Source: Bullifex porci
Lineage (GTDB): Bacteria > Spirochaetota > Spirochaetia > Sphaerochaetales > Sphaerochaetaceae
DNA: 59,287 nucleotides
Assembly: GCF_009695635.1 (NCBI RefSeq)
Contig: NZ_VUNN01000016.1
Coordinates: forward strand, 1 to 59,287
Direction of reading: 5' to 3'
The stretch's first letter is position 1. Every line of letters starts with the position of its first letter. The notes below the pieces were generated by a model, which saw nothing but the letters and a program-made list of their open reading frames with translations, was not told where the DNA came from and made no database searches. Below are positions 7,836 to 20,337 of the stretch, one piece after another. A program made the position numbers and the translations under genes.

Positions 7836-9503
7836 ATGCATGTAAGACAGACACCCGATATTTCTGGAATAGCTGCAGGCTTAGATACGATTGAACAGAA
7901 GCTTGGCAAGTATGGACTAACAAAGAAGGAGATTACAAAAGCTAGATTAATTTCTGAGGAATTGATGACTAGTCTCATCGGTCATGCAGATACTAGTGCA
8001 GAATACATGTTGCTTAGTGTACGTAAATGGATGGGAGAGATTGTTGTTGAGATTTCAGTTCCAGGTACTGCCTATGACTTTTCTCAGAGCATGGAAATGG
8101 GTGTTCCTCTAGATACGGATGACATCGGCAAGGATGCTGAAGTAACAATTCGTAACATGATTCTTAAAAGCTTTGCATCAGATTTAAAATATAGAAATCA
8201 AGGGGGTGTTAATTCTGTTCGCTTAACAGTTGTCCGTTCAAATAATAGACAGCTGTATTACACATTGGGCTCCATGCTTTTAGCAATTATTGTGGGTCTG
8301 GTATTTAAGCTTTTCTCTCCAGAGTCTGTTAACCAGCTACTGAGTGATAATCTATTTTCACCTATTAAGACTATGTTTATGAATGGGTTAAAGATGGTAG
8401 TTGCTCCTGTTGTATTTTTCTCCATAATCTCTGCAGTAGGACAGTTTGGTAACTTGTCAGATATGGGAAAAATAGGTGGGAAGGTTTTAGGGCTTTATCT
8501 TTTAACTACTTTGTTTGCAACAGCGATTGGAATTGGAATAGGCTACCTATTCCAGTTGAGCGGGGACACTACTATGGGCATAACCGCTTTAGATATTTCA
8601 TCTGTCGCATCACAGGAAGTGCACATATCTATCAAGGATATGCTTGTGAATATCGTACCGAGTAATTTTACTAAGCCATTTTTGGAAGCGAATATGCTTC
8701 AGCTGATTTTTCTTGCTGTAATTTGTGGAATTGCATCAGGAATGATTGGCTCACATGGAAAAACAATTAATGATTTCTTCAGTGCCTGTAACGAGCTATT
8801 TCTGAAAATAACTACACTGTTAATTAAGTTTATGCCGATTGCTGTATTTTGCTCCATAATGTCTCTAATTCTTACAACAGGAATGCAGACACTTTTGCCA
8901 GTATTGGGAATATGTGTATGTTTCCTTGCTGGGCTAGTGTTGATGATGAGTGTATATTGTCTAATACTCCTTTTAATGGCAAAGCTCAACCCTATTCCTT
9001 TTGTTAAAAAATACTCTCCAGTTATGGCACAGGTTGCTAGCATGGCTTCCAGCAATGCATCTCTTCCGCTGAATATGAGTACATGTGAGAAAAGACTAGG
9101 GATATCACCGAGGGTATATTCTCTGTCTCTTCCATTAGGTGCAACTATGAATATGGATGGAACCTGTGTATATCTAGGTGTATTTGCTCTCGGTCTTGCC
9201 AAGCTTTATGGTGTAGATATTATGAGCACAAGCTTACTACCTATTGTAGCCTCAATTATTATTTTATCTATTGGTGCACCAGGTGTCTCAGGAGCAGGGT
9301 TAGTTTGCCTTTCTGTACTGCTAACACAATTAAATGTACCTGTTGAGGCTGTAGGACTCATCATGGGTATTGACCCGCTACTTGGTATGCTACGAACTAT
9401 GAGCAACTGTCTAGGCGATGTCGTTGTCAGTACAATAGTTGCAAAAAGCGAAAACCTGCTTAATATGGATATTTATAATAAAGACGCAAAGAAAGGTAGA
9501 TGA
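7836..9503 (+). CDS. Dicarboxylate/amino-acid:cation symporter with N-terminal anti-sigma-kinase-like domain
   Basis: The protein is 555 residues. Residues 1-135 resemble an RsbW/SpoIIAB-type ATPase domain: ARLISEELMTSLIGHA at about 36-51 matches the N-box region, but the usual D-x-G-x-P ATP-lid motif is degraded to ISVPGTAYD. From about 145 on it is a DAACS (SLC1-type) sodium- or proton-coupled transporter of acidic or small neutral amino acids or C4-dicarboxylates. Motifs are MASSNASLPL (re-entrant loop), GATMNMDGT, GAPGVSGAG and DPLLGMLRTMSNCLGD. GAGGAG is 7 nt before the ATG. The domain order suggests transport gated by a STAS partner; a decayed STAS gene follows immediately. Confidence 0.9.
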   Translation: MHVRQTPDISGIAAGLDTIEQKLGKYGLTKKEITKARLISEELMTSLIGHADTSAEYMLLSVRKWMGEIVVEISVPGTAYDFSQSMEMGVPLDTDDIGKDAEVTIRNMILKSFASDLKYRNQGGVNSVRLTVVRSNNRQLYYTLGSMLLAIIVGLVFKLFSPESVNQLLSDNLFSPIKTMFMNGLKMVVAPVVFFSIISAVGQFGNLSDMGKIGGKVLGLYLLTTLFATAIGIGIGYLFQLSGDTTMGITALDISSVASQEVHISIKDMLVNIVPSNFTKPFLEANMLQLIFLAVICGIASGMIGSHGKTINDFFSACNELFLKITTLLIKFMPIAVFCSIMSLILTTGMQTLLPVLGICVCFLAGLVLMMSVYCLILLLMAKLNPIPFVKKYSPVMAQVASMASSNASLPLNMSTCEKRLGISPRVYSLSLPLGATMNMDGTCVYLGVFALGLAKLYGVDIMSTSLLPIVASIIILSIGAPGVSGAGLVCLSVLLTQLNVPVEAVGLIMGIDPLLGMLRTMSNCLGDVVVSTIVAKSENLLNMDIYNKDAKKGR

Positions 9504-9536
9504 GCTTAAAGCTAATCAAATGAGGATATATTTATA

Positions 9537-9782
9537 ATGACAATCCAAAAGCCTTTAAATGGGAAGTACACTGAATGTAATGCTATCTTGAAGATTAGAT
9601 ACAACAACTGCTCCACAACTAGAGGCAGAGCTAAAAACTTCTTTAAATGGTATTACATAGCTAAATTTCGATTTTAAAATATAGAGTATTTATCCTCTGC
9701 TGAGCTACGTGTTCTTCTAGCTGCTCAAAAGGTTTTGAATAAACAGTGTAAGATAATCTTTTTGTTTTCATTGAACTTTTGA
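9537..9782 (+). pseudogene. Decayed STAS anti-sigma-factor-antagonist gene
   Basis: Three frames together reconstruct a STAS protein: MTIQKPLNG, then RLDTTTAPQLEAELKTSLNG with a stop, then IEYLSSAELRVLLAAQKVLN. It parallels the intact STAS protein at 20041-20337 (RLDTITAPTLEA and LEYLSSAGLRVLLATQKVMN). There are at least two frameshifts and two in-frame stops, and the conserved G after SSA is E. It sits 34 nt downstream of the symporter with its own TGAGGA ribosome site, so the symporter once had a cognate STAS gene in the same operon. Confidence 0.82.
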
Positions 9783-9880
9783 TAATCAAAAAGAGCTTTC
9801 AGTTTTCTATCGATTGTCTCTCCTTTATTGTTTATACGTTAAACTAGTGAAAAGGTATATAATTTCTTTACTTTTTTTTA

Positions 9881-12070
9881 TCATCCTTTTGAATCAAGCT
9901 GTTGTCTTGCAACAAGCTCTGCAAATTTGCCACCCATATTAATTAACTCTTCATAGGTGCCATCTTCCACAATTTTACCATTGTCAAGGTATATTATACG
10001 GTCACACTGCTTGATGGTTGAAAGTCTATGAGCGATGACTATACGAGTACACTTTAATCCATCGAGTGACTCTGATACTTTTTTCTGTGTAAGATTATCG
10101 AGCGCTGAGGTTGCTTCATCAAACATCAGAATTCTAGGCTTAGGAGCAATTGCACGAGCTATCATTAGTCTTTGTCGCTGCCCACCTGATACACCTCCGG
10201 AGCCTTCAGAAATAATCGTGTGCATTCCCATAGGCATTCTTTTAATATCATCTGCAATACCAGCAAGCTCTGCTGCTCTCCAAGCATCATCTATAGTTAG
10301 CCATGGAGCAGAAATAGTGATATTGGAGAAAATATCACCTTGAAATAGCTTACCATTCTGCATTACAACACCGATTTTTCGCCTTAAGGATTTTAGGTCC
10401 ATGCGAGAAAGATCCTTTCCATCATAGTACACAGCACCCTTCTGTGGTGTTTCAAAGCCAAGCATAATTCTCATGAGTGTTGATTTCCCACAACCTGTTG
10501 TACCAACAATAGCAACATATTGCCCTGGCTTTATTTTTAAAGAAAGATTATCTAAAACATTAGGCATGCTTTCGTTATAGCGGAAAGAGATGTTGTTAAG
10601 CTCAATACCACCAGAAATACGAGTTACTACTTGCTTATCTGCTGAGATTTCTGGAACTGTATCCATAATTGGTTTTGCCATATCTAAAATAGGCTTGATA
10701 TTAGCTGCAGTAAGTGCAATAGAGGCTAGTGACATAAATGCACCAGATACCATGCCATATGCTGTGTTAAAGGCATAATAATCTGCAACACTTACATGAC
10801 TATTAGCTGCAAAATAATACATTAAGATTGTACCAATAAGTGATATAGCCATAGAGAATACAGAACTATATTTCAAGAATGTTGGTGGATTATAGGTTAA
10901 CTTAGCTCTTTGAGTATATACATTTGCCCAACGAGCAAAGGCTCTTTTTTCTGCACCTGAAAGCTTGATTTTCTGAATTCCAGAGATAAGAGCATAGCTC
11001 ATACCATATTCCTTTGCGCCTGCCTCCATCTGCTTTTTAGCAAGCTTCATCTGTGCTATGGCTGTTAAAGTAGTAAAAAGAATAGTTGCTATAATGATGC
11101 TTAAGGCTGGAATAACTAATGCAGGAGCGTATTTGAAAATCTGTGTAATGTAGATAAGAGAAAACACAGAGGTCAGTCCCGTTGATAATATTGCTGAGAC
11201 TAGCATATTGCAAAGAGAATTCATTTGTCCGCAACGACTAGATAGATCACCAGAGCTGTAGCTTTTGAAAAAATCTGCAGGCAAGGACATTACTCTTGCC
11301 ATAGTTGCTGCTTGTACAGTTATATCCAGCTTTGTGTTAATTCGTGTGGTAAGCAGTGACTTCACTGTGCTTAGTAGCAGAGAAGCGATGTTTACACAAA
11401 CCATAAAAAGAATAATTGCAGTTAGAAGTCTCATACTTCCAGTATCAACTACTGTTCCCATCAATAGATTATTTAGCTTTGGAGTAAGTAGGCCTACTAG
11501 TGTAACTGCTAATGTGCCAAGCCCAATTAGCACAAAATCTGAGACGGAAAGAATTTCCATTATATATCGTAAGAGAATAGGGATATTCAATTTCTCGATA
11601 GGAAAGGGCTTATAGAAGGCTAGTGCCTCATCCTCAAAGAGATCCTCATTTTTTTTGTTTATCTTTACATATTTCCCACTACTTTGATCAAGATAGCTAT
11701 ATCCAGATAATCCTGTTGGGATAAAAGCAACAACAGAGCTATCAGCTTTTTTTACGCCAAGCATTGCACCGATAGCATTCTTATACCACCCCTTTTCAAG
11801 CTTTACTCTGCGTCTCATAATGCCGTAAGGACGCATTAAATACTCAAGCTGTTCGTTTAAGTTTTTTATACTGTCAGGAACCTCCTGTGTTTTGACATGA
11901 TAAAAGCTTAGGATGCTATCAATTGCATTTTTTGCCTTTTGTGCATCAGATTCAAAGGCAGAAGATAGCTTTTTCCCTAAAACAGCATCTGCAATACCTG
12001 CAAAAGCGGCAGCAAATACAGCATCATCATTTTGCTTTCGCTCTTTGATTTGTTCATCGAACCATCCCAT
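9881..12070 (-). CDS. NHLM-type ABC exporter, permease/ATPase subunit without peptidase
   Basis: This 729-residue half-transporter is the last gene of the operon. The N-terminal ~160 residues are a soluble extension characteristic of the second NHLM exporter subunit, with no C39 cysteine. The transmembrane domain spans about 165-450 and the ATPase about 480-729, with Walker A VGTTGCGKST, signature VSGGQRQR, Walker B ILMFDEATSALD and the switch His in IAHRLST. It follows the peptidase-bearing subunit by 12 nt and probably forms a heterodimer or tandem exporter with it in the inner membrane. NHLM transporters export ribosomal peptides with nitrile-hydratase-like or Nif11-like leaders; the cargo here is unknown. 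Confidence 0.9.
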   Translation of the reverse strand: MGWFDEQIKERKQNDDAVFAAAFAGIADAVLGKKLSSAFESDAQKAKNAIDSILSFYHVKTQEVPDSIKNLNEQLEYLMRPYGIMRRRVKLEKGWYKNAIGAMLGVKKADSSVVAFIPTGLSGYSYLDQSSGKYVKINKKNEDLFEDEALAFYKPFPIEKLNIPILLRYIMEILSVSDFVLIGLGTLAVTLVGLLTPKLNNLLMGTVVDTGSMRLLTAIILFMVCVNIASLLLSTVKSLLTTRINTKLDITVQAATMARVMSLPADFFKSYSSGDLSSRCGQMNSLCNMLVSAILSTGLTSVFSLIYITQIFKYAPALVIPALSIIIATILFTTLTAIAQMKLAKKQMEAGAKEYGMSYALISGIQKIKLSGAEKRAFARWANVYTQRAKLTYNPPTFLKYSSVFSMAISLIGTILMYYFAANSHVSVADYYAFNTAYGMVSGAFMSLASIALTAANIKPILDMAKPIMDTVPEISADKQVVTRISGGIELNNISFRYNESMPNVLDNLSLKIKPGQYVAIVGTTGCGKSTLMRIMLGFETPQKGAVYYDGKDLSRMDLKSLRRKIGVVMQNGKLFQGDIFSNITISAPWLTIDDAWRAAELAGIADDIKRMPMGMHTIISEGSGGVSGGQRQRLMIARAIAPKPRILMFDEATSALDNLTQKKVSESLDGLKCTRIVIAHRLSTIKQCDRIIYLDNGKIVEDGTYEELINMGGKFAELVARQQLDSKG

Positions 12071-12082
12071 ATTACTGCCTCC

Positions 12083-14266
12083 TTACTCATTAGATACCAG
12101 CTCGGTGTATAAACCACCTCTAGCATAAAGCTCTTCATGAGTTCCACGATCTATAACCTTGCCGTTGTCAAGCACAATAATTTCATCGCAGTCTCGAATT
12201 GTAGATAGTCTATGTGCTACAACAATACATGTTATTCCTCTATCCTTAATAGAGTTAATTACTTCATATTCTGTTTTTGCATCGAGAGCAGAGGTTGCTT
12301 CATCTAGAATAATAATAGTTGGGTCCTGTGCGAGTACACGTGCAATTTCCATTCTTTGCCTTTGACCACCAGAGAAGTCCTTACCGCCCTCTGTAATTTT
12401 GTATTGATAGCCACCTTCTCGCTGCATAATATCCTCATGAAGATGGGCATCTCTTGCTGCCATAATCATTTCAAAATCTTCGATAGAGCTATCCCACATT
12501 TTTATATTGTTTGCAATAGTATCCTCAAAGAGGATGATATCCTGGTCTACTACAGCTAAAGAACCGGTAAATACACTGTGGTCAATTTGATTTATGCTCT
12601 TTCCATCAAACAATATTTCTCCACTCCAAGGCTGGTAAAGTCCTGAAATTAACTTTGATAGAGTGGACTTTCCACACCCAGAGGAGCCAACAAAGGCAAC
12701 ACGACTACCAGGCTTTAGTGTTAAGCTAAAATTCTCAATTAAAGGCTCTGCTAAACGGGAGTAGCCGAAAGTTACATTACGCATCTCAACTAAGCCCGAT
12801 AGCTTATCATATTCTTTATTCTCATCCCAGCTTTCATTTTCATAGTTAACATCGGTAGGATACTGCATAACATCCTCAATACGTTCCATTTCTGTACGCA
12901 TTTCTTGAATGCCTTGTCCTGCAGAGATTAACGATAGAGCAGGGGAAGTAAAGGAGCTCATATAGCCCTGAAATGCCATAATCATACCAATAGTGAATTT
13001 CCCCTGTATTGTAAGAAATACACCAATTGCCAAAACAGCAGTACTCGTTAACGAAGATACTAGTGATGGGATTAATCCAAGATATTGGTTTAGGTTAGTG
13101 AATTTCATTTTCTGTGTGTTAACGCTTGCTTGATACCCTGACCATTTCTCGAAATAACCGTTTTCAGCACCACTTGCTTTAATTGTTTCTATCATTTCGA
13201 TACCAGCAACTGTAGCTCCTGCTAGCTTGCCACTATCACGCATCTGAACCCTAGTGATATTAATACGCTTTCTAGAGATAATCTGTCCCATCACAAGATT
13301 TAATAAAATAGAACATAGACCCACAGCAGTTAAAAGTACACTGTATCTTAGCATAACAACTAAGTAAAAAATCATCATTACAGCGTTGAGAGCCAGTGGT
13401 GCTATGGTATTTACTAGCGTACCTGAGATCGAAGCATTTGTGCTTTGTCTCTGCTGAATATCTCCTGCCATACGCTGAGAGAAAAACTCCATAGGTAGCT
13501 GAAGCACCTTCCACATAAAGGAGGTGCTACCGTAGGAAGACATCTTACCGTCTATACGATGATTTACTCCAATGCTAATAAAAGAAACTAATAGCTCAAT
13601 TGCAGTAATAGCTGATAATGCAATTATAAATGGATATAGCCATTCTGGATTTTGACCTGTAAGTAATCTATCTAGAAAAATTCTAGAAAATGCGGGACGG
13701 ATAATTCCAAGTAGTGAGGATATTATCGTTGTTAGTATTACGAAGGCTACCACACTTCCTGTTCCCTTTAAGCGGCTTTTAGCAAATTGGATGATGCTTT
13801 TTGGCTTTCCACCTGGCTGAAAAGACTCACTTGGTTCAAATAACAGGCAGATGCCGGTAAATGACTTATCAAAGGTCTCCATAGATACGCTATATGTACC
13901 CTTTTCTGGGTCATTTAATATAGCTTTGTTTTTCTTAAAGCCATTAAGTACTACAAAATGATTGAAGTCCCAGTGGATGATACACGGGAATGTCCCATTC
14001 TTTTTTAGTGATTCAAGCTCAAAACGGTAGCCCTTTGCATTTAGTCCATAGCTCCTAGCAGCTTTCAATATATTCTTAGCATTTGAACCATCACGGGAGA
14101 CACCGCAATCATAGCGTACCTGCTCTAAAGGTATCCACTTTTCGTAATATGCAAGTACCATTGTCAAGCAGGCAGCACCACACTCTAATGCTTCCATTTG
14201 CATTACAACTGGAACCTTAGCTACACTATTTCGCACAGGCTGTTTTATTTTATTTTCATTACCCAT
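12083..14266 (-). CDS. NHLM-type ABC exporter with C39 leader peptidase
   Basis: The protein is 727 residues. The N-terminal C39 peptidase (about 20-145) has MEALECGAACLTMVLAYY with catalytic C29, IIHWDFNHFVVLNGF with H103 and LNDPEKG with D119; the triad looks intact. Six transmembrane segments lie at about 165-440, then an ATPase with VGSSGCGKST, FSGGQRQRME and IIILDEATSALD. The family cleaves double-glycine-type leaders and exports the core peptide. It lies 8 nt after the HlyD-like gene. An intact peptidase implies a living substrate, yet no precursor gene is visible in the window. Confidence 0.92.
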   Translation of the reverse strand: MGNENKIKQPVRNSVAKVPVVMQMEALECGAACLTMVLAYYEKWIPLEQVRYDCGVSRDGSNAKNILKAARSYGLNAKGYRFELESLKKNGTFPCIIHWDFNHFVVLNGFKKNKAILNDPEKGTYSVSMETFDKSFTGICLLFEPSESFQPGGKPKSIIQFAKSRLKGTGSVVAFVILTTIISSLLGIIRPAFSRIFLDRLLTGQNPEWLYPFIIALSAITAIELLVSFISIGVNHRIDGKMSSYGSTSFMWKVLQLPMEFFSQRMAGDIQQRQSTNASISGTLVNTIAPLALNAVMMIFYLVVMLRYSVLLTAVGLCSILLNLVMGQIISRKRINITRVQMRDSGKLAGATVAGIEMIETIKASGAENGYFEKWSGYQASVNTQKMKFTNLNQYLGLIPSLVSSLTSTAVLAIGVFLTIQGKFTIGMIMAFQGYMSSFTSPALSLISAGQGIQEMRTEMERIEDVMQYPTDVNYENESWDENKEYDKLSGLVEMRNVTFGYSRLAEPLIENFSLTLKPGSRVAFVGSSGCGKSTLSKLISGLYQPWSGEILFDGKSINQIDHSVFTGSLAVVDQDIILFEDTIANNIKMWDSSIEDFEMIMAARDAHLHEDIMQREGGYQYKITEGGKDFSGGQRQRMEIARVLAQDPTIIILDEATSALDAKTEYEVINSIKDRGITCIVVAHRLSTIRDCDEIIVLDNGKVIDRGTHEELYARGGLYTELVSNE

Positions 14267-14274
14267 GCTTCACC

Positions 14275-14757
14275 TCAATTAAAGATAAATGACATTGGTG
14301 AGGTACTATCAAGCACGATTTGAGCTTTATAGATACCGTCTGCAAGTCCAGTATTGCACTGTACAGCATAAACCCATTCACCAAGCTTTAAGCCGCTAAT
14401 ATGAAGTACATATTCAGAAAAATCCTCACCACGAACTGCGATTGGCTCAAGTGGGATAGAAGATGCATTAATTTCATATTCTGTCCCCTCTATTGTAAAG
14501 GTTTTGTTTAAAACAGAGGATATGTCTTCCTCTGGAATATAAATAGTAAGTGCTTTATTTTCAACAATTGCTGCAGTAGTAATAGTTGTATCTAAGTGTC
14601 CTAGAACTCCCCATATACAAACACCTACAAGTAATATGATTACAGCTACAATTACCAACCAAATGCTCGGACTACAGACACGAATATAGTCATTAAGCTG
14701 TTCTGGTGAAGAAACTCTTTCTATACTTTTCTTTCTAAAAATCGTGTTGTTTTCCAT
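14275..14757 (-). CDS. Short NHLM/HlyD-like membrane adaptor
   Basis: This 160-residue protein has one membrane anchor at about 34-54 (SIWLVIVAVIILLVGVCIWG) followed by LGHLDTTITTAAIVENK, the typical start of an HlyD/NHLM secretion adaptor. The extracytoplasmic part continues as a small beta-rich domain and lacks the long coiled coil and most of the lipoyl-type region of ordinary HlyD proteins. Position and spacing (52 nt after the SpoIIE gene, 8 nt before the C39 exporter) support a role as exporter accessory. The gene has clean ends, so I read it as a short variant and not a truncation. Confidence 0.75.
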   Translation of the reverse strand: MENNTIFRKKSIERVSSPEQLNDYIRVCSPSIWLVIVAVIILLVGVCIWGVLGHLDTTITTAAIVENKALTIYIPEEDISSVLNKTFTIEGTEYEINASSIPLEPIAVRGEDFSEYVLHISGLKLGEWVYAVQCNTGLADGIYKAQIVLDSTSPMSFIFN

Positions 14758-14809: not shown

Positions 14810-16834
14810 TTAAATATTCTTTTCTAGTATTAGAATATTTCTTCCATCCTTATACTCATAGGAAATATCATCCATTATCTTTTTTACCATATATATTCCC
14901 AAGCCTCCAATCTCTCTCTCATCTGCAGATAGAGTAGTATCAGGATCCTCCTTTACTGTAGGGTCATATGGACTGCCGTTATCGACGAATCTAAGACTTA
15001 CTTTATTTTCTGCTACATTGCATCCAACTCTTGCCTCTGTTGCTCCACTATAGCGGGCTATATTGGAGTAGATTTCATCTATTGCCATGTTTACTTTAAA
15101 GATGAGCTTATTGGATACTCCTCCCTCTGAAAGAAGATTATCGATAAAATCAGTGACCTGGTCTAAATTATCGAGACTAGGCTTTAGAGAGATTTCTTCA
15201 AAGGAACTACTAACTTGCTTGATTTGTATTGAGAGCATAGTGATATCGTCAAACTGATCTGCTATGCCTACAAATGAGTCAATGTCTTTGTGTAGTGATC
15301 CCAAAAGCTCACGAGAGGATAGGTCCTTTGCTTTATTAAGTGCATCAATCATTCTGTCGGTTCCATATAGGTTGTTATTGCTATCTGTTGCTTCTGCGAC
15401 TCCATCTGTATATACAAAGAGACGGTCACCTGCAGATAAGACTAACTCATACTCACGATATTTAGAGCCTTCCATTCCAGCTAGGACAAAGCCGTGTTTG
15501 TCTTTATAGAGCTCAAAGCTTCCTCCTTTTCTCATTATTGCTGGGTACTCATGTCCTGCATTTGCGCAGACCAGCTTTCCTGTAGAAATTTCAAGAATAC
15601 CGATCCAAACAGTTACAAACATCTCTGCATCGTTGTTTTCACAGAGCTGGTTGTTAACCTTTTCCAAAATAGCCTTAGGAGAAAGACCACTTTGTGCTGC
15701 TGACTTTAAGAGTGTCTTTGAAATCATCATGAACATTGCAGCAGGAATGCCCTTTCCCGATACATCCGCAATGACCATTGCTAGGTGGTCCTCATCCACA
15801 AGGAAGAAGTCGTAGAAGTCTCCTCCTACCTCCTTTGCAGGAGTCATTGAAGCAAAAATATCAAACTCATCTCTATTAGGAAATGGAGGGAATATTGAAG
15901 GAAGCATGGAAGCCTGGATATGTCTCGCAACATCAAGCTCAGCGCCTATGCGTTCCTTTTCTGCTGTGACTCTAGAAAGGTTATCGATGTATTCCTCAAG
16001 CTCAGAGAGCATGAAGTTGAAAGCATGGCTTAATGATTCAATTTCATCTCCAGTCTTTATTTTGATGCGCTGGTTTCCAAAGTCATTTGTTCTTGTAATC
16101 TCCTGCGTAAAGTCTGTGAGCCTTCCTACAGGATTGATAACTATTTTTCTTACAAATACGATATAAGCTAGAATTGTTATTCCTATTATTGCAAAGGATA
16201 TGATGAACATGTTAACTAAGAATGAGTTTAGATATGCTCTTACCTCACTCATATCTAAAATATATTGGATTTCAGCAATAGCTTTTCCATTTTCATCTAG
16301 AATTACTGAGATTCCAGTGTAATTAAAGCCATAGTCGTTATCTGTTACAAGAGGTTTATCAATTCCTTTGTTTTTAGCATAGTTTTCCCAGATTGTTATG
16401 TATTTTTCCATATCCTTAGGGTCATTTGGATTTGCTGCATCGGTATATAGAATGTTGCTACCATATGGTATTTGAAGAGCAGGATCATCTCCCATTTCCT
16501 CAACCATAGCATCGATGTAGAAGGTAACACTATCTTCATCTGGCACAACTAGTGATAAAAATGTAATCTCTCCATCTGCCTTGAGCTTGTTAAAGAGGTC
16601 ATACATCTCTTTGTATTCTGGAGTCTTTTCTCCACCATCACTGATGATTTTTTTTACATCATTTACATCTAGCATAGCTGCAATAGCATTGCTATTAGTC
16701 ATGATGCGCTCTGCATATAGTTGATTAAGATAAGACTTTGTAGTGGCATAACTGAATATTGATACTGCAACAGTAATTACTATTCCAAGGATGCCAAGTG
16801 AAATGATGAATTTAGGTAAGAGCTTAATCTTCAT
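14810..16834 (-). CDS. Membrane SpoIIE/RsbU-type phosphatase with HAMP and C-terminal ATPase domain
   Basis: The protein is 674 residues. It has TM1 at about 8-28, an extracytoplasmic sensor at 30-205, TM2 at about 206-228, HAMP at 228-282 (INPVGRLTDFTQEITRTNDF) and a short coiled coil. The PP2C/SpoIIE phosphatase follows at about 320-530 (AKEVGGDFYDFF with D339, ADVSGKGIPAAMF with D357). A C-terminal RsbW-like ATPase ends the protein at about 545-674 (AIDEIYSNIARYS, RFVDNGSPYDP, GGLGIYMVKK). This ATPase has all usual ATP-binding motifs, unlike those on the two transporters. It should dephosphorylate, and could phosphorylate, a STAS partner, most simply the operon's first gene product. Confidence 0.92.
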   Translation of the reverse strand: MKIKLLPKFIISLGILGIVITVAVSIFSYATTKSYLNQLYAERIMTNSNAIAAMLDVNDVKKIISDGGEKTPEYKEMYDLFNKLKADGEITFLSLVVPDEDSVTFYIDAMVEEMGDDPALQIPYGSNILYTDAANPNDPKDMEKYITIWENYAKNKGIDKPLVTDNDYGFNYTGISVILDENGKAIAEIQYILDMSEVRAYLNSFLVNMFIISFAIIGITILAYIVFVRKIVINPVGRLTDFTQEITRTNDFGNQRIKIKTGDEIESLSHAFNFMLSELEEYIDNLSRVTAEKERIGAELDVARHIQASMLPSIFPPFPNRDEFDIFASMTPAKEVGGDFYDFFLVDEDHLAMVIADVSGKGIPAAMFMMISKTLLKSAAQSGLSPKAILEKVNNQLCENNDAEMFVTVWIGILEISTGKLVCANAGHEYPAIMRKGGSFELYKDKHGFVLAGMEGSKYREYELVLSAGDRLFVYTDGVAEATDSNNNLYGTDRMIDALNKAKDLSSRELLGSLHKDIDSFVGIADQFDDITMLSIQIKQVSSSFEEISLKPSLDNLDQVTDFIDNLLSEGGVSNKLIFKVNMAIDEIYSNIARYSGATEARVGCNVAENKVSLRFVDNGSPYDPTVKEDPDTTLSADEREIGGLGIYMVKKIMDDISYEYKDGRNILILEKNI

Positions 16835-18298: not shown

Positions 18299-20023
18299 CT
18301 AAAGTATTAGGTATAAATAATTGAATATCATCTTGCGCTGATAGTCACAATATTTTGTTTTCTTCTCTATGAGTTCTAGTACTCCTCTGTCTATCTCATC
18401 TCCATTTGATTCAAATGGATTGTATGTATTAACGTTATCACGGATACGGAGTACATGGTCATCTCCCTTTTCCATGAGCTTAATAGAAATATAGTATTCA
18501 TTTTTTATCTTCTCTGTTTCTCCGAGACCAAACTTGATTATATTCAGTAAAATCTCTTCGCAGATGAAGTTTATGACGAATGTCTTCTTGATGTTTATTT
18601 CCCATTCCTCGGAAATACTTTCAAGGTCACTAGAGATTCTAGCCATACTTTCCGGAGCCATAGGATATATCATCTCTATGCTTCTTCCATCATCTTTATA
18701 TTTTTCGCAAATATATTTTTTTGATGGCTTAGCAACACGTATTATGAGAACTCCTAATGAGCAGATTACTTCTGTTAAAACGTATGAGTAGGATAGTCCA
18801 ATTATATTTGAATGTGGAATTAAGAATGAGCCAAGGATAAGAAGTAGAAGACAATTTCGAAGTAGTGACATAGTAGCTGCTTCCTTTGCTCTTCCAATAG
18901 ACTGCCAGAATGCTGTTACTATTGTATTAATTGCTGAAAATACTATACCGAGAGAAAATATCCCTATAGCCTTTGCTGCAAGAGCTATTTCTAAATCCTC
19001 TTTTATACCGAAAAAGCGTGCTAAAGCAGGTGCGAATGCGAAAGCAAGAATAGATAGTGTTACAGCTGATGCTATAGCTACTGTTAAAGCCTTTTTCAAT
19101 ACAGCAGATATGCCGTCTTTGTCAGATTCTCCTGTAAGGAATGCTGTTACAGTCGATAGTGCACTAGCTGAGCCATCAAATAATCCTGTAGGAATTGTAC
19201 TTATTGTATATATAACACCATAGATTGCTACATAAAGTGCACCATAGCTTCCTTTTTTTAGTAGCAGTGTATTAAATACAAGCATTACTACTGCTCCAAA
19301 GATATTTGCAGAGCCCATGCCAAATCCATTAGCTACAAAGTCTACTGCATCCTTCTTTGATGGCAGAGCCAAACGGAGCTTCAGGAGAGTGTGTTTCTTT
19401 GCAAAGTGTGTTAGAAGTACTACTGTCCCCAGTGCTTCTGCAATGCAGAGAGAGGAGGAAGCTCCTGCTATTCCCCATCCTAGAATTTTCATAAAGAGAA
19501 TGTCTAAGACAATGTTTGTAATAATTACAACGCCGGAGGCAATGGCAGAAAGTCTTGGATCGCTATCAGATCTAACAGAAAAGGAGAGGATGTGGTATAT
19601 GACAAATATAGGAGAAGCCCACATCACAACAGTTAGGTACTGTTCTGCTATTGGATATAGCTCCTCAGTTACACCCAAGAAGGAGAAATAAATATCTTTG
19701 AATAAAAGAGGTGATAAAGCTAGGATGCCTACTGTCAGACCAAGTCCTAGGGCTGAATGGAAGGTTTTATTAGCACCCTCTATATCAGAGGCTCCTAGTA
19801 ATCTTCCGATATGAACATTTGCTCCTACTGCGATAGTAATACCAAGTAGAGCGTAAAGAAGGAATACCGGTGTGGAGATATTTGCTACAGCAAGTCCCTG
19901 GGGGCCAACAAGGTTTCCTACCAGGGTTGCATCAACTATAGTGCATACTGTTAGGGCAAGAGAAGAGCATACACCCCATATTAGAAAATGCCGATATGCG
20001 CTACTTGCGAAGTCAGTATTCAC
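18299..20023 (-). CDS. MATE transporter fused to a degenerate anti-sigma-kinase-like domain
   Basis: The protein is 574 residues. Residues 1-430 form a MATE efflux transporter (GNLVGPQGLAVANISTPVF near the N-terminus, repeated 12-helix pattern), which normally exports cationic organic compounds with Na+ or H+. Residues about 440-574 resemble the ATPase fold of RsbW-type kinases: FICEEILLNIIKFG matches the N-box, but the ATP-lid region is RIRDNVNTYNPFE without the usual glycine and no clear G2 box follows. ATP binding is doubtful, STAS binding is plausible. It lies 17 nt after the STAS gene. It mirrors the symporter at 7836, where the same type of domain sits at the N-terminus. Confidence 0.88.
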   Translation of the reverse strand: MNTDFASSAYRHFLIWGVCSSLALTVCTIVDATLVGNLVGPQGLAVANISTPVFLLYALLGITIAVGANVHIGRLLGASDIEGANKTFHSALGLGLTVGILALSPLLFKDIYFSFLGVTEELYPIAEQYLTVVMWASPIFVIYHILSFSVRSDSDPRLSAIASGVVIITNIVLDILFMKILGWGIAGASSSLCIAEALGTVVLLTHFAKKHTLLKLRLALPSKKDAVDFVANGFGMGSANIFGAVVMLVFNTLLLKKGSYGALYVAIYGVIYTISTIPTGLFDGSASALSTVTAFLTGESDKDGISAVLKKALTVAIASAVTLSILAFAFAPALARFFGIKEDLEIALAAKAIGIFSLGIVFSAINTIVTAFWQSIGRAKEAATMSLLRNCLLLLILGSFLIPHSNIIGLSYSYVLTEVICSLGVLIIRVAKPSKKYICEKYKDDGRSIEMIYPMAPESMARISSDLESISEEWEINIKKTFVINFICEEILLNIIKFGLGETEKIKNEYYISIKLMEKGDDHVLRIRDNVNTYNPFESNGDEIDRGVLELIEKKTKYCDYQRKMIFNYLYLIL

Positions 20024-20040: not shown

Positions 20041-20337
20041 TTACTCAATAGTCAAAATATCACAAAAGCCTGTGATATCGAAAATTTCAGCAATAGTCTC
20101 GTTAACATTACGGATGACCATTTCTCCCTGCTTATTCATTACTTTCTGTGTTGCAAGAAGAACTCTTAAGCCTGCAGAAGAAAGATACTCTAGTTTTGCA
20201 AAGTCAAATATGAGCTTCTCAACTCCTGTGATACTTTCTTTAATTGCAGCTTCAAGAGTTGGAGCTGTAATAGTATCTAAACGTCCTTCAATGCTAATTT
20301 CAAGCTTGCTTCCATCTTGTACTTTCTTTATTTCCAT
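20041..20337 (-). CDS. STAS-domain anti-sigma factor antagonist
   Basis: This 98-residue single STAS domain of the SpoIIAA/RsbV type is the first gene of the eight-gene operon. The phosphorylatable serine region is LEYLSSAGLRVLLA, with S53 and S54 as candidates. Such proteins switch partners when phosphorylated by an RsbW-type kinase and dephosphorylated by a SpoIIE-type phosphatase; both activities could come from the SpoIIE-ATPase protein downstream. No sigma factor gene is present, so the target may be the ATPase-like domains on the transporters. The start is set by the domain boundary; the ribosome site is weak (GAGAGC). Confidence 0.93.
   Translation of the reverse strand: MEIKKVQDGSKLEISIEGRLDTITAPTLEAAIKESITGVEKLIFDFAKLEYLSSAGLRVLLATQKVMNKQGEMVIRNVNETIAEIFDITGFCDILTIE

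Follow-up and report, generated by a model that had tools for sequence, protein, structure and literature searches.

Partner switching is known mainly for sigma factors, with a few enzyme outputs. In the sporulation and stress switches SpoIIAA/SpoIIAB/SpoIIE and RsbV/RsbW/RsbU (sigma-F and sigma-B), a STAS protein is combined with an RsbW-type GHKL domain and a SpoIIE-type PP2C phosphatase, and the same three kinds of protein are found at the locus described here, where the RsbW-like domain (below, the tag) is fused to a transporter and is predicted to fold as SpoIIAB and RsbW do. Two Pseudomonas systems, SiaABCD (PMC8457831) and HsbR–HsbA–HsbD (PMC5085249), are partner switches acting on diguanylate cyclases; the likeness would lie in a switch output other than a sigma factor. 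For transporters, the solved structure of MlaF–MlaB has a STAS protein attached to an ABC ATPase; there, as we propose here in another form, a stand-alone STAS protein regulates a transporter post-translationally (PMC7367683). CbrA, like the present protein, joins a transporter to a GHKL-family domain: it is a fusion of an SSS symporter with a histidine kinase, and its transport is independent of the kinase part (PMC7918813).

The symporter and its N-terminal domain

The window, a stretch of 59,287 nucleotides, is one whole contig (C8) of the Bullifex porci genome (G000; 2.42 Mb in 67 contigs, 97% complete). The gene at the centre of this analysis and its tag are:

7836–9503, forward strand: SDF-family cation:dicarboxylate/amino-acid symporter with an N-terminal pseudo-RsbW domain (intact open reading frame, 555 amino acids)
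7836–8264, forward strand: the N-terminal pseudo-RsbW domain, residues 1–143, GHKL, anti-sigma kinase fold (sub-threshold PF13581 match, AlphaFold model, PDB matches, motif table)

In a profile search, PF00375 covers residues 146–537 (E 2.8e-99; profile positions 4–386 of 387), that is, the full membrane part, which places the protein in the SDF family. Both the NMDGT motif and the C-terminal R-T-x-x-N-x-x-G-D residues can be read directly in the sequence, so that the carrier looks functional. PF13581 (HATPase_c_2) matches residues 1–138 taken alone with E 7.6e-4 and 19.9 bits, below the curated cut-off of 27.4; when homologous N-terminal domains are taken singly, 55 of 72 match this profile, with a best E of 3.4e-10. 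An NCBIfam search with the tag listed no model at E 1e-3.

An AlphaFold model of the domain, for which the alignment of 72 fusions served as input, has a pLDDT of 85.9 and a pTM of 0.77. Its best PDB match is UsfX with RsfB (8ih8; Z 13.8), followed by RsbW (6m37; 12.6), Rv1364c (12.5) and SpoIIAB (1th8; 12.4); the SiaB structure ranks lower (6kko; 8.7), and histidine kinases trail at a Z of about 7. Because of these matches and the PF13581 matches of the 55 domains, the modelled domain is placed, within the GHKL fold, on the branch of the anti-sigma kinases. The preliminary description of a symporter with an N-terminal RsbW-like domain is thus borne out by PF00375, the PF13581 matches and the AlphaFold fold. 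It had named an unrelated fold in advance as the outcome that would count against it; what emerged were UsfX, SpoIIAB and RsbW at Z 12–13.8, and a domain outside the GHKL fold is ruled out by the model together with its anti-sigma kinase matches.

The complete ATP site (N-box E-x-x-x-N, G1 D-x-G and G2 G-x-G) is not found in the symporter domain of the window: the N-box Glu is kept, the Asn has become Ser, the G1 Asp is absent and there is no ATP lid. The earlier remark that a clear ATP lid was lacking was right and understated, with the N-box Asn and the G1 Asp gone as well. The same pattern runs through the SDF-fusion domains, in which the N-box Glu is kept in 85/92, the Asn in 7/92 and the G1 Asp in 0/92, and the G2 glycines are lost. 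Judged by these motifs, the tag of the symporter is a predicted pseudokinase and not an active kinase. All five residues (E, N, D, G and G) are kept in RsbW-like domains whose fusion partner is PP2C (10/10) or a STAS-APH protein (3/3), and stand-alone RsbW-like domains are nearly all complete at the ATP site, the exceptions (L098 and L099) being pieces of split symporter fusions. Tags on MATE transporters vary, with the Asn present in 6/12 and the G1 Asp in 7/12, and are not uniformly dead.

Dead and intact STAS genes

The following features surround the symporter or, in the last case, lie elsewhere in the same genome:

9537–9758, forward strand: STAS pseudogene with two in-frame stops, two frameshifts and the C-terminal quarter lost (frame-tolerant alignment against shuffles)
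14810–16834, reverse strand: sensor protein with HAMP, a SpoIIE-type PP2C phosphatase and a complete RsbW-like kinase domain (profile matches, motif table)
18299–20023, reverse strand: MATE transporter with a C-terminal RsbW-like domain, adjoining the STAS gene (profile matches, motif table)
20041–20337, reverse strand: intact STAS of the anti-sigma-factor antagonist type, candidate partner in trans (TIGR00377)
8404–8660 of contig C16 (locus L011), reverse strand: second dead STAS, with one stop and one frameshift (DNA comparison)

The broken STAS gene that had been claimed 3' of the symporter is a genuine pseudogene. When two intact STAS proteins are aligned to 9504–9880 with frameshifts allowed, the scores are 158 and 159, against 24 ± 3.6 (maximum 36) for 60 dinucleotide shuffles, which rules out a chance resemblance; a reading frame with a whole STAS domain (a PF01740 gene) is absent from 9537–9758. 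The closeness to the intact STAS at 20041 that was claimed along with it fared less well: with 38/66 identities, the latter is not its nearest relative, and the best intact match is the STAS of a congener (44/74 identities). The sister wreck on contig C16 is 83.5% identical in DNA over 249 bp to the span 9507–9754 of the window. Near it lies the remnant of a small Cys-rich ORF, such as is also found beside STAS in G015 and G072. Stand-alone STAS genes in this genome thus amount to one intact and two dead copies, in addition to a SulP-like protein with a STAS domain.

The STAS at 20041, the only intact stand-alone one in the genome, scores 72.5 bits with TIGR00377 (cut-off 53.45), and its SSAGL loop can be read as a Ser-bearing phosphoacceptor loop and putative site of phosphorylation. 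In the neighbouring MATE tag, the N-box E-x-x-x-N is intact, and G1 and the lid are degenerate. The product of 14810–16834 matches SpoIIE at E 6.5e-48 and a complete HATPase_c_2 at E 1.9e-17, whereby a phosphatase and an intact kinase, as in partner switching, are present in one genome; it is presumably both the writer and the eraser of STAS phosphorylation.

The preliminary description had regarded the symporter and its dead STAS as a second transporter–STAS unit within 1 kb of the first. This holds for the end of the opposite operon, where an ORF ends at 9881, but not for its MATE and STAS genes, which are 8.8–10.8 kb away. The intervening stretch (9881–14757, reverse strand) holds, after the PP2C-kinase gene, two C39-type/ABC exporter genes and a putative membrane protein of 160 amino acids. 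In the congeners G008 and G010, similar ABC genes precede STAS, an enzyme-like protein of 509–519 amino acids, a tagged MATE and the PP2C-kinase; from this gene order, 9881–14757 looks like a STAS-linked export operon.

Neighbourhoods of relatives and competing explanations

A genome scan for the fusion returned at least 80 loci, the listing of which favours close relatives; the hosts among the loci listed are Lachnospiraceae, Oscillospiraceae, Coriobacteria, spirochaetes and a Synergistota bin, with rumen and gut as frequent sources. The closest homologue of the symporter among the matches listed (L094; 57%) ends a run of genes on one strand that comprises a tagged MATE, a SpoIIE PP2C, RsbW, an HD hydrolase, STAS-APH, RsbW and the tagged SDF. 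In G072 (L221), a genome of the spirochaete family to which the window belongs, one strand carries STAS, a Cys-rich ORF, a binding protein–permease, a tagged ABC ATPase, a SpoIIE PP2C and a tagged SDF, several of these genes overlapping and an intact RsbW being divergent; similar runs are found in G125 (L154) and G042 (L158). Shorter sets occur in G015 (STAS, ABC ATPase, SDF fusion) and G004 (tagged ABC ATPase, SDF fusion, STAS, second SDF fusion). By gene order, the switch genes sit together in G072, G125, G042 and L094; the symporter of the window is adjoined by a dead STAS only. No sigma factor was noticed in these runs among the genes as read, sigma-factor families lying outside the profile search.

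An adjacent STAS gene, the complete lack of which in homologues had been named as a refuting outcome, does occur: 7 of the 80 loci listed have one within 5 kb of the fusion, compared with 1.0 expected from genome-wide density (P 8e-5), or six events (P 6e-4) since L049 and L053 are close relatives. STAS linkage is therefore real but a minority trait. The gene shares the run of the fusion in G072 and lies near it in G125 and G015. A STAS or STAS fusion lies 5' of the symporter fusion at 12 bp (L109), 25 bp (L049 and L053), 488 bp (L120), 568 bp (L094) or 4.1 kb (L111), and directly 3' only in G004 (L118; gap 53 bp). As a general trait, the directly 3' position was rejected, being found in G004 and, as a wreck, in the window; nor was any neighbourhood conserved over all 80 fusion loci listed.

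Several further genes combine these domains. In the genome of the window, an RsbW-like domain also forms the C terminus of the ATPase of an amino-acid ABC transporter (contig C3, L215:7424–8614, reverse strand). STAS fusions with an APH-type phosphotransferase are encoded at L094:6237–7415, L160:1983–3173, L163:490–1659, L167:4917–6488 and L223:5176–6360; the one in L167 also carries an intact RsbW domain, and those in L094, L160 and L223 adjoin an HD_4 (SpoT-like) hydrolase. AMP-forming ligases are fused to an N-terminal STAS or a C-terminal RsbW-like domain (L049:1543–3405, L053:6048–7916 and L195:979–2874), the STAS-ligases sitting 25 bp upstream of the symporter fusion, and ABC exporters (membrane domain plus ATPase) bear an N-terminal RsbW-like domain at L199:1495–3369 and L040:1429–3252. 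A membrane protein of 970–1170 amino acids, MscS-like by eye, is encoded near the symporter fusion at L009:8055–11567, L165:1194–4691, L117:4534–7443 and L166:8123–11263; the clades in question are unrelated, and the G132 and G120 versions are 56% identical.

In the spirochaete family (139 genomes), a non-SulP STAS is present in 14/16 genomes with the SDF fusion versus 26/123 without it (Fisher 3e-7; SulP separated by frame length). Stratified by genus, the co-occurrence is 12 observed versus 7.2 expected (p 2.5e-4, with the size of genus g10, whose members are partly listed, taken as 45). STAS is also present in all 50 fusion genomes, which was discounted because this set is without a fusion-free control and many Clostridia are expected to hold sporulation STAS genes. 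Within the genus of the window, stand-alone STAS and a strong PP2C-kinase occur in exactly the same 5/16 genomes, whereas ABC-ATPase tags occur in 14/16; the ABC tag thus works without STAS or is a relic there. Perfect co-occurrence of tag and STAS in the genus was dropped on account of ABC tags found without stand-alone STAS, and was kept for SDF and MATE fusions together with the PP2C-kinase. The general scheme proposed at the outset, in which STAS proteins gate transporters, accordingly stands in part: it is supported by runs in which two or three tagged transporters accompany STAS, a phosphatase and an intact kinase (L221, L154, L158 and L094), but not by the surplus of ABC tags over STAS genes.

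This surplus also bears on a different explanation, in which the tag would be a STAS-independent accessory domain (a module for dimerisation, stability or a small ligand) and its linkage to STAS a remnant of its origin or a matter of some members only. Besides the ABC tags, mostly without stand-alone STAS, it could account for the SDF-fusion genomes G117 and G120 of the spirochaete family, which have no STAS at all by PF01740, for the 73/80 listed loci that have none within 5 kb, most fusions being alone on their contigs, and for an intact symporter beside a dead STAS in the window. However, tagged SDF and MATE genes follow the presence of STAS and PP2C-kinase within genera, and do so in the same gene runs. 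Moreover, the N-box Glu has survived where the remainder of the ATP site has not, a pattern that points to a conserved surface and away from a generic scaffold. An accessory role is unlikely, if the best placed of the alternatives.

A shade less probable still is that signals flow in the opposite direction. The transporter would then be a sensor (a transceptor), its substrate occupancy or flux altering the grip of the tag on STAS, and STAS would relay the nutrient signal to the PP2C-kinase, a sigma factor or other tagged proteins. Fusions of transporter and sensor are known, CbrA among them (PMC7918813), and the sharing of one STAS by several different transporters in one operon would suit signal integration. 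Yet the kinase of CbrA is active and the tag is dead in all sampled SDF fusions, the STAS modules already own separate sensor-phosphatases, and neither a sigma factor nor a transcription output was noticed in the operons (with the sigma families outside the profile search).

In a tree built by a quick method, with long branches elsewhere, the symporter of the window groups with two clostridial sequences (SH-aLRT 99), apart from the other spirochaete fusions, which suggests that it was acquired from Clostridia. It is highly improbable, though, that it is an idle passenger whose STAS partner remained in the donor and whose neighbouring remnant is a leftover of the host genus unconnected with it, as might also be read from a dead STAS of the genus's own type with a second dead copy elsewhere: the symporter ORF and its tag are intact, and in congener G004 a fusion followed by STAS at a short gap is intact as well.

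Proposed mechanism and comparison with known systems

The reading we prefer, at a probability of roughly 0.52, is STAS/phosphatase control of transport through dead-kinase tags. A catalytically dead domain of the RsbW/SpoIIAB type would have been retained on the symporter as a tag to which a small STAS protein docks. Unphosphorylated STAS would bind the tag on the cytoplasmic side and alter transport, with an effect of either sign; STAS would be released once its serine is phosphorylated by an intact RsbW kinase, either a protein of its own or joined to the phosphatase; and resetting would fall to a PP2C phosphatase of the SpoIIE type, which often has a sensor part. The output of the switch would then be a set of transporters (SDF symporter, MATE and amino-acid ABC ATPase) and not a sigma factor. 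With the STAS beside the symporter dead, a partner in trans would be needed, for which 20041 is the only candidate. If the switch still works in the window, STAS 20041 and the phosphatase-kinase at 14810 would have to serve the symporter in trans, and this STAS would be common to the symporter, the tagged MATE and the tagged ABC ATPase of contig C3 (L215). RsbW proteins are dimers and SDF transporters trimers, a stoichiometry that counts against docking.

A broader version is more tentative and falls somewhat short of even odds: in gut and rumen Clostridia and spirochaetes, partner switching free of sigma factors may control nutrient uptake and export post-translationally, with pseudo-RsbW tags, fused independently to AMP-forming ligases and at least four transporter types (SDF at the N terminus, MATE and amino-acid ABC ATPase at the C terminus, ABC exporter at the N terminus), being read by a shared STAS under kinase/phosphatase control. 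Should STAS dock on the tags, abundant gut anaerobes could adjust several unrelated transporters at once through a single sensor-phosphatase, in a matter of seconds and with no need for transcription, and the stand-alone STAS and phosphatase genes in operons without a recognised sigma factor would be explained. The window offers a natural test case, its genome having lost two STAS copies and kept the tagged symporter and one STAS.

Each part of this arrangement is of a known kind, and we regard the whole as a variant: the open-licence literature yielded no description of an RsbW-like domain on an SDF, MATE or ABC transporter, nor an earlier one of dead anti-sigma kinase tags on several transporter families in an operon with STAS and phosphatase. 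CbrA differs in its kinase part, which is of the histidine kinase type with DHp and whose catalytic domain is active, in belonging to another transporter superfamily and in having a two-component output. In SiaABCD and HsbR–HsbA–HsbD, the switch protein itself reaches the enzyme or regulator, and there is no transporter with a fused pseudokinase. MlaB contacts the ATPase domain directly, without an RsbW-like tag, and the abstract describes no kinase or phosphatase (PMC7367683). By contrast with the SpoIIA and Rsb switches, no sigma factor was noticed in the operons, the RsbW-like domain is fused to a transporter and is without the Asn and Asp of the ATP site, and each module comes with several tagged transporters.
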